A stretch of DNA of 6,847 bases from Bacteroidota bacterium (GTDB lineage Bacteria > Bacteroidota > Rhodothermia > Rhodothermales > Rubricoccaceae): the NCBI GenBank assembly GCA_022564455.1, contig JADFLK010000117.1, positions 1-6,847 of the forward strand, read 5' to 3'. The notes beneath the pieces are model-generated. The model saw only the letters and a list, made by a program, of their open reading frames with translations, made no database searches and had not been told where the DNA came from. A program made the position numbers and the translations under genes. How positions within the stretch are numbered: position 1 is the stretch's first letter; every line of letters starts with the position of its first letter. Positions 3,674-6,847 of the stretch are shown here, one piece after another.

Positions 3674-3712
3674 CCACACAATGTGGCGAAATGAATCTTT
3701 GCCTGCAAGAAA

Positions 3713-3781
3713 TATTGCGTAGAGCGTATTGCGCAAGGATAGCTGACCAGAGCAAATACGCAATACGAAACACGCACAAGT
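3713..3781. repeat. Inverted pair of heptamer repeat arrays (CGTATTG/CAATACG family)
   Basis: Left array: TATTGCG (3713-3719), TAGAGCG (3720-3726), TATTGCG (3727-3733). Right array, opposite orientation: AAATACG (3754-3760), CAATACG (3761-3767), AAACACG (3768-3774), CACAAGT (3775-3781). Both are in 7-nt register and are separated by about 20 nt of unrelated sequence. CGTATTGCG (3725-3733) and CGCAATACG (3759-3767) are perfectly complementary over 9 bp with a 25-nt loop. The element occupies most of the gap between the converging LVIVD gene and ndk. No T-tract follows, so a terminator role is possible but unproven. It reads as a degenerate short tandem repeat, not a gene. Confidence 0.7.
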
Positions 3782-3783
3782 CG

Positions 3784-4224: not shown

Positions 4225-4317
4225 GGAATGCCGTCGGATGAATGCAAAATGTCGAACGAGTACTCCTCAAACAACCCATGTTTGGCCCCAGTCAACCACG
4301 AAGTCAGAGCGAATACG

Positions 4318-4349: not shown

Positions 4350-4428
4350 TGACTCAGACTACCCGCCTCGCGGCGACGTTGAACGAAAGTCGCCCTACAC
4401 CCAGCCTTCACCCGTCCTAATGATCCAT

Positions 4429-5619: not shown

Positions 5620-6078
5620 TCATTGACACGCAGCATCCAACTGCTCCCTTGCGTCCTCGGGCGAGAGGTTCCTGGCCACGATAGTGAGCGAGATGCTGCG
5701 CCCACCCTCCGCGAGGCGCGCTTCGGTGCCGTCAAACAAACGGAACATGGAGGGGCCGATACGTGCCGGGCCTTCAAATACATCGCCGGCGGCCGGAGCG
5801 TAGTCGTCACCTGTCGTTTCAACCAGAGTCATGCCTTCCCGGAGTGTTTGCGCAACGAACGTGGAGCATCCAGGGTGCGTGAGGAAAACCGAGTGCGCCG
5901 CGATGCTGGCTTCGCCTGCGGAAAACAGGCTGATGCCGCAACCGGAGAAGAGTATGGAAAAGAGGAGAGGAAGAAAGGAGGAGGTTGATTTCGGATTTCG
6001 GATTTCGGATTTCGGTTGTCCGTTGTGGGAGCGCCCAACTTTCCGTCTGCCGTCTGCCATCTTCTGTCCGCGGTCCAT
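5620..6078 (-). CDS. Putative small lipoprotein, hypothetical, with repeat-derived N-terminus
   Basis: I do not recognise the family. The 152-codon frame has two parts. Residues 1-31 are the translation of a heptamer repeat tract and contain the only canonical starts (ATG at 6078 and, at residue 7, 6060). From residue 32 it looks like a real exported protein: a hydrophobic run SFLPLLFSILFSGCG (34-48) ending at Cys47, which could be a lipid-modified cysteine, although Phe at -3 is not the usual Leu/Val/Ile of a lipobox. A globular part of about 100 residues follows, with Cys at HPGC and near the end (DAACQ), GDVFEGPARIG, and strand-like SISLTIVARN. The first ATG directly follows the lipA stop (TAGATG), so translation could be coupled to lipA. 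The stop TGA shares the palindrome TGATCA with the opposing gene. That the downstream part is a gene is likely; the true start is uncertain. Confidence 0.6.
   Translation of the reverse strand: MDRGQKMADGRRKVGRSHNGQPKSEIRNPKSTSSFLPLLFSILFSGCGISLFSAGEASIAAHSVFLTHPGCSTFVAQTLREGMTLVETTGDDYAPAAGDVFEGPARIGPSMFRLFDGTEARLAEGGRSISLTIVARNLSPEDAREQLDAACQ
5987..6077. repeat. 91-nt mosaic of heptamer repeats (13 units in register)
   Basis: Four perfect GATTTCG units (5987-6014) are followed by GTTGTCC and GTTGTGG (6015-6028), two unrelated units (6029-6042), then CCGTCTG twice (6043-6056) and the decayed CCATCTT, CTGTCCG and CGGTCCA (6057-6077). The whole tract stays in a 7-nt register. Because 7 is not divisible by 3, every frame through such a tract repeats every 7 residues. 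The minus-strand reading gives fragments such as SEIRNPKS, which I remember as a recurrent artefact peptide in translated databases. The tract lies immediately downstream of the lipA stop. Confidence 0.85.
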
Positions 6079-6847
6079 CTAAACGTGCCGCTCCGCGTGG
6101 TACGACGACCGAACGAGCGGGCCGCTTTCCACGTACTCGATACCCTTCGCCTCTCCGACCTCCTTGTAGTACGCGAAAACGTCAGGGTGTACATATTCCT
6201 CGACGGGAAGGTGCATTTTCGTAGGCTGGAGGTACTGGCCGATGGTCATCACGTTCACGCCATGCGCGGCCAGGTCGTCCATTAGTGAGAAGACCTCCTC
6301 CTCCGTCTCGCCGAGGCCAACCATGATGCCGCTCTTGGTGCGGAGTCCGTGCTCGTCCTTTGCCATCTTGAGAACGTCGAGCGAACGCTGGTAGTCGGCT
6401 TGTGGGCGTACACGCCGATAGAGACGCGGGACGGTCTCGATGTTGTGGTTCAGGAGGTCCGGCTTCTGCTCGAAGATCTTTTCGAGGGCTGGGCGCAGGC
6501 CGCGCATGTCCGGGATGAGCACTTCGATGGTGCAGCCGGGTATTTGCTCGCGGACGAGCCGGATGGTTTCGGCAAAAATCGGGGCGCCGCCGTCCTCGCG
6601 GTCATCGCGGTTAATGGACGTAACCACGACGTGCTTGAGGCCCATCAACCGGGCGGCCTCGGCTACGCGCCGGGGCTCGTCCCAATCGAGGTCCTTGTCC
6701 GTTGGCCGGCCGGTTTGCACCGCGCAGAACGAGCACGAGCGCGTGCAGACGTCCCCGAGAATCATGAACGTGGCCGTTCCTGCCGTCCAGCACCGCCCCA
6801 GGTTTGGGCAACGGGCGGTCTGGCAAACGGGGTGCAGGCCATGCTCT
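6079..6847 (-). CDS. lipA: Lipoyl synthase, radical SAM (partial, N-terminus beyond window)
   Basis: LipA inserts two sulfurs into the protein-bound octanoyl group of lipoyl domains (pyruvate and 2-oxoglutarate dehydrogenases, glycine cleavage H protein), using two 4Fe-4S clusters and S-adenosylmethionine. The visible frame enters at 6846 and gives 255 residues. The auxiliary-cluster cysteines are present in [14 protein letters not shown] (C-X4-C-X5-C; codons 6823-6825, 6808-6810, 6790-6792), then [10 protein letters not shown], then the radical-SAM triad CTRSCSFC (C-X3-C-X2-C; codons 6745-6747, 6733-6735, 6724-6726). [43 protein letters not shown] and TIGQYLQPT follow in the usual order, and the C-terminal RSSY (6100-6111), which supplies the serine ligand, is intact. 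Roughly 35-45 residues are missing upstream, judging from the usual length of about 290. The ATG at 6765 is internal, not the start. The gene is probably functional and co-transcribed with the small lipoprotein gene after it. Confidence 0.96.

Follow-up and report, generated by a model that had tools for sequence, protein, structure and literature searches.

A mosaic heptamer tract beside lipA in a Rhodothermota-like bacterium, and its probable place among dispersed intergenic repeat tracts of G/C polarity

Does a run of unlike heptamers held in a single register betray a mechanism that counts seven nucleotides and is indifferent to base content? An earlier note, made from the letters alone, had proposed this for a 91-nt tract (positions 5987–6077) in the 6,847-nt stretch of DNA analyzed here (the window), which comes from a Rhodothermota-like bacterium and encodes an aminotransferase, an LVIVD-repeat protein with a secretion tail, ndk, a CarboxypepD_reg protein, a small lipoprotein, and lipA. 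The features referred to below are as follows:

3712–3783, no strand assigned: head-to-head tract between the LVIVD gene and ndk, GTATTGC-type units facing AATACGC-type units
5620–6078, minus strand: small lipoprotein, 152 aa, lipobox ILFSGC (by eye), 11 relatives found
5987–6014, plus strand: four perfect GATTTCG units, the G-rich arm
6015–6028, plus strand: GTTGTCC GTTGTGG, in phase with GATTTCG
6029–6042, no strand assigned: centre GAGCGCC CAACTTT, read from the sequence, outside both unit families
6043–6077, plus strand: CCGTCTG CCGTCTG CCATCTT CTGTCCG CGGTCCA, the C-rich arm
6079–6846, minus strand: lipA (lipoyl synthase, Radical SAM; PF04055, 7.6e-24; similar plasmid genes are annotated lipA)

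The 5′ end of lipA is cut by the window edge and its stop codon abuts the tract. The lipoprotein had no Pfam match and the window no Rfam match; scanning 5900–6200 for promoters and terminators revealed nothing at the tract and one terminator-like site at 5928–5943 (shuffles averaged 0.5). The nearest relative found was the genome (G001) of locus L001, a MAG labelled Bacteroidetes bacterium B7T1B5, with 78.5–94% DNA identity to the window in the aligned parts; genome-wide tests were run there and in other genomes of the order. Another related locus, L002, belongs to a MAG labelled Rubricoccaceae bacterium. The Pfam-less lipoprotein family (the part at 5620–5980) adjoins lipA in both the window and L001.

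The unit families that the note had named were all recovered. TRF called GATTTCG (4.1 copies, 100% match) at 5987–6015 and CCGTCTG (2.9 copies) at 6043–6062; GTTGTCC and GTTGTGG follow the GATTTCG units directly and in phase, matching the respective preceding unit at 4/7 and 5/7 positions (by eye). Over 5987–6077, self-identity was 55/84 at lag 7, 42/77 at lag 14, and 34/70 at lag 21, compared with 15–32% at those lags between 3 and 20 that are not multiples of 7. Without the GATTTCG part (6015–6077), lag-7 identity was still 30/56 (P ∼1e-4; 20,000 mononucleotide shuffles), that is, tandem 7-nt units beyond chance. The note had considered the register unbroken, but the 14 central bases (6029–6042) fit no unit, with just 1–2 of 7 positions like those of the neighbours (by eye). 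Because any contiguous 91 nt equal 13 × 7, “no break” is meaningful only where adjacent units resemble each other. The two halves of the tract are of opposite skew (G15:C6 at 5987–6030, G10:C20 at 6031–6077): the GATTTCG arm is G-rich on the plus strand and points away from the conserved part of the lipoprotein, and the C-rich arm, G-rich on the minus strand, points away from lipA, so that both halves have their G-rich strand directed away from the ORF closest to them. The GATTTCG repeats contain GG and not the GGG per unit, in at least four units, of the heptamers described by Rehm (2015; see below). A short imperfect inverted repeat, GTTGTGGGAGCGCCCAAC, is possible at 6022–6039, using 6022–6028 and the centre (by eye); as RNA, the tract folded no better than shuffles (z = +1.0).

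The tract is not plain intergenic DNA, as it lies within the lipoprotein open frame, of which it forms the 5′ part, encoding ∼25 N-terminal residues. Upstream of the lipid-anchor cysteine, only codons 1 and 7 are in-frame ATG, GTG, or TTG; thus, the tract is translated if the lipoprotein is made from one of these starts. The counterpart region in L001 is a longer mosaic (GCGGACA, CGGAGGA, AAGTACC, CAAATCC ×7.3, CCTTCTC), also open in frame, and the frames of the lipoprotein relatives are open despite very different tract lengths. Such openness is not automatic: in 22 arrays of G001 of at least 84 nt, 43% of the frames were open, versus 30% in controls. The N-termini of the relatives P0002, P0005, P0006, and P0008 resemble translated repeats (by eye). 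The signal peptide of P0004 consists of a plain 22 residues without tract, which indicates that the tract is not needed.

Comparison with L001 showed that turnover of the tracts is fast. The mature lipoproteins of L001 and P0002 are identical at 104/106 residues, yet their N-terminal parts comprise 105 and 71 residues, respectively. The flanks of the lipoprotein/lipA tract are 81.5% and 86.5% identical between the window and L001, and BLAST gave no alignment across 5978–6038; the part at 6039–6077 aligned. In the second tract of the window, the GTATTGC-type arm (3712–3745) is G11:C5 and the AATACGC-type arm (3752–3783; AATACGC called by TRF at 3755–3776) is G6:C9. Alignment with the L001 orthologue required one gap within the arrays, of exactly 7 nt and with the window being the shorter, and gaps of 2 and 3 nt beside them. 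Faint heptamer-like remnants (by eye) were also seen at 4225–4265 (G12:C8) and 4380–4428 (G7:C19), at either end of the DNA that separates ndk from the CarboxypepD_reg gene.

Of the two outcomes that the note had named as refuting it, neither occurred in the relative G001: its intergenic DNA has an excess of period 7, and the units are not confined to the window locus. The GATTTCG pair, GATTTCGGATTTCG, had 44 matches in the 3.1 Mb of G001 (overlaps counted), compared with none for the reversed control and none in G002. Runs of at least 10 matches were counted by period in 42 stretches of G001 that had not been picked for repeats (523 kb of coding as well as non-coding DNA; L028, fully masked, was dropped in later counts): there were 50 for period 7, 32 for 14, and 18 for 15, compared with 3, 4, 8, and 8 for 6, 8, 9, and 12, respectively. 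For period 7, five Markov simulations gave 0.6. Degenerate ones included, 92 period-7 arrays were found, of which 85 were intergenic; the best period of 121 intergenic arrays was 7 in 71 cases, 14 in 15, 8 in 10, and 15 in 7. Dispersal across intergenic sites and many unit families of one period are thus present in G001; the window's genome is known from two tracts in 6.8 kb. Elsewhere, period 7 is less special (12 runs versus 10 at period 6 in G046; 16 versus 21 at period 12 in G037). G002 had no such runs in 78 kb and no arrays, and what was sampled of G048 and G049 was likewise free of arrays; stretches that are masked in genomes other than G001 were left out as well.

Autocorrelation within the tract regions of G001 peaked at each multiple of 7 up to lag 84 (0.418 to 0.274; troughs ∼0.245), which means that the 7-nt register persists for ∼12 units. 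Separated arrays of one region did not prefer a shared register, in a test biased towards breaks because the array finder merges in-register neighbours. In 69 arrays of G001 that span 49 nt or more, adjacent units were 70.3% identical compared with 56.9% when the unit order was permuted (z 21); the likeness faded with distance (z 14 and 5.8 at distances 2 and 3) and by four units no longer exceeded that in permuted order; detecting arrays by lag-7 matches directly inflates the likeness at distance 1, not that at distances 2 and 3. Together with the single 7-nt unit by which the orthologous ndk tracts differ, the likeness of neighbouring units points to local duplication. That difference stands for one event and stems from sequence comparison, not from mutation followed in real time. 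One heptamer tract (L081, 2421–2542) contains a higher-order repeat of three units (21 nt).

The tracts also share a vocabulary: 155 9-mers were common to four or more of the 54 regions with tracts, compared with 2.6 on average, and 20 at most, in control draws. The leading units of G001 were AAATCCG, ATATCCG, AAATCCC, ACGGAGG, and AAGGGTG, partly from stretches picked for GATTTCG, and ACGGAGG, ATATCCG, AAATCCC, and ACAGAGG in the unpicked ones. Of 20 further stretches of G001, 18 (L064–L081) had been picked for GATTTCG pairs; the results on polarity, autocorrelation, and unit similarity draw on picked and unpicked stretches of G001. Units differ by genome (ACGGACC in G036, ACGGCTG in G037, ACGGAGG in G035), in counts for which the reversed-pattern control, as it keeps period 7, is a poor negative (53 control matches in G034).

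The G/C polarity of the window tracts, both of which obey it, is a rule among the relatives. The G-rich strand points away from the gene in 133 of 155 arrays less than 100 nt from a gene edge in 11 sampled genomes of the order, irrespective of whether the edge is a start (67:9) or a stop (66:13) and of gene arrangement (>> 38/41, << 54/67, >< 21/24, <> 20/23). The bulk of this count comes from G001. It excludes arrays whose neighbour call is missing, whose skew is zero, or which lie farther away, and its genes are from our own simple caller and not from annotation. Several arrays in the same region do not count as independent; where a region has only one array, the rule is obeyed in 62 of 73 cases. 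Across 130 arrays in G001, the left end of an intergenic region is G-skewed on the plus strand and the right end C-skewed (Spearman −0.58), and adjacent arrays are ordered GC in 33 pairs, CG in 1, GG in 17, and CC in 4. In 38 regions with a single array, the side opposite to it bears a weak trace of a partner (lag 7, 0.293 versus 0.256; skew −0.14). Array-free regions (n = 227) show mild skew at starts and none between convergent stops. Polarity fails for G001 arrays at least 100 nt from a gene (7 G : 11 C) and in G037 (start 1:1, stop 5:4), and was not seen on the 350-kb cyanobacterial plasmid NC_007410 (8 G : 5 C; few arrays); Nostoc plasmids lack the repeats of Rehm, according to the accessible text of that paper (PMC4692102). 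The same text reports matching placement in two Xanthomonas and one Nostoc; thus, heptamer tracts and their polarity were already published for these genera, and the rule itself is not new.

Polarity and reuse of words speak against a mechanism indifferent to base content, and the notion of counting seven is weakened by 8- and 9-nt families in relatives. Families of 8 nt surfaced in G021 (GGGTGTTT) and G022 (GGGAGAGT) from a spacing-8 pattern search intended as control, and subsequently in G033 (GGGTTTTC) and G035 (GGGAGTGT, GGGCGGAT). Among the 14 period-8 arrays of G020–G022, 2 lacked a neighbour call and were left out, and 9 of the other 12 were G-rich outward (by eye; weak alone). In G001, period-8 arrays numbered 10 in unpicked stretches (8:0 G-rich outward within 100 nt) and 13 in picked ones (6:2), and arrays of 15 and 16 occurred too. 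Within single regions of G035, an 8-nt G arm stands with a 7-nt C arm (L188) or an 8-nt arm with a 15-nt arm (L192). The four G035 regions were chosen by octamer matches, three of them for visibly facing arrays; a fifth, L191, lies in a called ORF and has no intergenic array. The spacing-7 and spacing-8 GGG counts include long poly-G tracts (G005, G013, G018, perhaps others); such tracts were seen in G005 (C3), G013 (C24), and G018 (C55), with facing poly-C in G005 and G013, and are possibly sequencing artefacts. What is drawn from these searches are the sequences themselves, with counts only where given.

In G035, the facing arms enclose a conserved core. L188, L189, and L190 have spacers of the same length, 51 nt, and L192 has one of 43 nt; the spacer sequences are related. 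A pattern from the former three (at most 2 mismatches) had 15 copies in G035, twelve of them at loci found by the core alone (L194, L198–L208), and one weak match in G033; none of the remaining 112 genomes of the order had a match, and the reversed control had 2 matches overall. At all 16 loci (the 15 plus L192), the 48 nt before the ∼50-nt core are G-skewed, and C-skew marks a 48-nt stretch after it that begins 52 nt beyond the start of the core. Clear tandem arrays (identity at their own period of at least 0.8) flank the core at 12/16 loci before and 11/16 after, the remainder being short or degenerate; their unit lengths are 8 or 9 before the core and 7, 8, 14, or 15 after it. The pair GGGAGTGT / GCCCATCC occurs at six cores (L194, L195, L196, L199, L200, L208) with 1–11 and 2–9 units, respectively. 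Eight of the core loci had no Rfam match at E up to 1, and nhmmer with the core found nothing convincing in the window and the other loci examined (best E 0.8, in G037). Polarity and, in G035, the core are steadier features than the number 7.

Which process makes such tracts? If 7 nt were the DNA stretch held by the replicative polymerase, slippage would proceed in steps of 7 whatever the sequence, a hypothesis of Mrazek (2007) as cited in the accessible parts of PMC4679880 and PMC4692102. The dominance of period 7 in G001 (71 of the 121 intergenic arrays, plus 15 at 14) agrees with such a ruler, as does the finding, in the accessible text of PMC6344855, that heptamers are the commonest intergenic tandem DNA repeats among 7006 prokaryotic genomes. 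However, the 8-nt families of G021, G022, G033, and G035, the ten period-8 arrays of G001 itself, and the 8-nt arms joined to 7-nt or 15-nt arms within single G035 regions render the ruler unlikely, and it leaves polarity and vocabulary unexplained. Selection of a nucleic-acid element, with quadruplexes of the G strand or an RNA hairpin between the arms regulating or protecting neighbouring genes, would be in line with the placement rule, which matches that of quadruplex-forming heptamers in Xanthomonas and Nostoc (PMC4692102, accessible text), and with 8 of 31 G..C pairs of G001 having a complementarity above the 95th percentile of the controls (phase-wise test). Yet, arrays without GGG or CCC are as polar as the others (56/65 versus 77/90), so that three-tetrad quadruplexes are not the cause of the rule (the comparison does not bear on two-tetrad ones), median arm complementarity equals that of controls (Smith-Waterman, within versus between regions), and the window tract folds no better than its shuffles; we consider such selection quite improbable. 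A hairpin as the driver was rejected on the grounds that arm complementarity within regions does not differ from that between regions and only the minority of 8/31 is complementary. Slightly less credible still is a phase-variable signal peptide, in which gain or loss of units would shift the lipoprotein frame and act as an on/off switch: the tract is 5′ coding sequence without a later start, and 7 is not a multiple of 3, but the relatives' frames stay open at very different tract lengths, P0004 does without the tract, 85 of the 92 period-7 arrays in the G001 sample are intergenic, and the perfect run here has just four units.

Head-to-head arrays could also arise if broken ends gained G-rich 3′ repeats, in the manner of telomeres, and were then joined. 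This predicts G..C order regardless of gene direction (33:1 in G001), G-rich units of 7–8 nt, and species-specific units, but the enzymes expected for it do not accompany the arrays. Reverse transcriptase (PF00078) was not found in G001, G046, G037, G021, G036, or G022, though it matched once in G035, and twice and 29 times in the array-poor G002 and G014, respectively. Ku is encoded by 10 of 114 genomes, none of them G001, G035, G036, G037, G046, G021, or G022, although two Ku genomes, G025 and G028, had 35 and 84 spacing-7 GGG matches (counts that may include poly-G tracts); LigD polymerase was found in G037 only, of 12 genomes. As their distribution does not track the arrays, reverse transcriptase, Ku, and LigD found no support as array makers. 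Moreover, a conserved core between the arms, as in G035, is unexpected at random breaks. We consider end addition the most far-fetched of these scenarios. Several of the 29 reverse-transcriptase matches of G014 are equal in score; an 80-kb sample of this genome held one period-7 array.

On balance, we favour a different origin: the window tract probably belongs to a class of short tandem-repeat tracts that are spread over the intergenic DNA of the genome, share a head-to-head G/C layout, and change by gaining whole units, through local duplication, or losing them. A typical tract would consist of a G-rich and a C-rich arm, head-to-head, which may grow, shrink, and drift through duplication or loss of whole units, most simply by replication slippage, and through point mutation; the step would usually be 7 nt here and 8 or 9 nt in other families. 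Unit duplication and loss with point mutation would yield an in-register mosaic. Slippage alone explains neither polarity nor shared vocabulary. Some copying between loci is suggested by the latter, since short composite pieces (arms, sometimes with a small core) that are mobile within the genome would make words recur at unlinked places. Tracts would persist where harm to coding is least, the one in the window being read into the N-terminal part of the lipoprotein. They presumably serve no host function, and the tracts of the window and of G035 appear to be of one kind of origin. More speculatively, and with considerable doubt, the heptamer tracts of many bacteria may be worn arms of a single class of small dispersed element, made of G-rich arrays that face each other across a short core. 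The geometry (polarity and core) would then be conserved, unit sequence and length (7, 8, 9, 14, 15) would be free, and some activity at the core would renew the arms.

Dispersed 7-nt tandem units are also known as the heptanucleotide STRRs of cyanobacteria, the units of which differ from those here; no description of mosaics or polarity in them was found in the literature searched. The note's comparison with cyanobacterial heptanucleotides was nevertheless a fair one, given the dispersed heptamers of Nostoc and Xanthomonas (GGGAATC / GGGGA(C/T)T; Rehm 2015, PMC4692102), which, as far as the accessible text describes them, are likewise intergenic and near ORF ends, with the G-rich strand away from the nearest ORF whatever its direction, and occur as convergent pairs, 70 and 75 of them in two genomes of Xanthomonas and few in Nostoc. 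Unlike these, the tracts here comprise many unit families per genome, often GGG-free and forming mosaics, and the relatives add families of period 8 and 9 with like layout and, in G035, the conserved core. According to the available parts of the respective papers, the TAACTGA repeats of Beggiatoaceae (MacGregor 2015, PMC4679880) are heptamer tracts too, but of a single unit and mostly just upstream of start codons, compared with dozens of units at both gene ends here; the constant-size, variable-sequence repeats of Bacillus (Subirana and Messeguer 2021, PMC8161180) similarly combine one size with many sequences, but with units of 52 and 20–21 nt; and the four-heptamer element of Geobacter metallireducens (PMC2700814) is also short and dispersed (49 copies), but has one consensus and lies within and between genes. 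No report of mixed-period arms, GGG-free families, or a core of the G035 type was found in the literature searched, mostly without subscription journals. For the function of intergenic heptamers, the authors of the survey of 7006 genomes had “no clear clue” (PMC6344855, accessible text). With a period that varies among relatives, polarity without GGG runs, and, in G035, a core amid several unit lengths, this question is now testable, and attention shifts from a 7-nt ruler towards core and polarity.

A different core is present in G001, inside C-rich heptamer arrays and hairpin-like. GATAGGCCAACCGGCGCGCTCGGCGATCACG and close variants occupy six in-array places with at least 25/31 matches (L080 twice, L033 twice, L082, L056), compared with 23/31 for the best of 40 shuffled cores; the best match in the window was only 18/31. 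REP elements are small dispersed hairpins with GTAG next to a palindrome, and the other strand of the G001 core plus the following CCCTACC likewise reads GTAG and then a palindrome (by eye). The Y1 transposase (PF01797) of REP and BIME systems was not found in G035, G037, or G021, and matched weakly in G001. As the G001 core is different and has six clear places only, the composite element is established for G035 alone. Weaker forms of the G001 core occur at L076 and L064.
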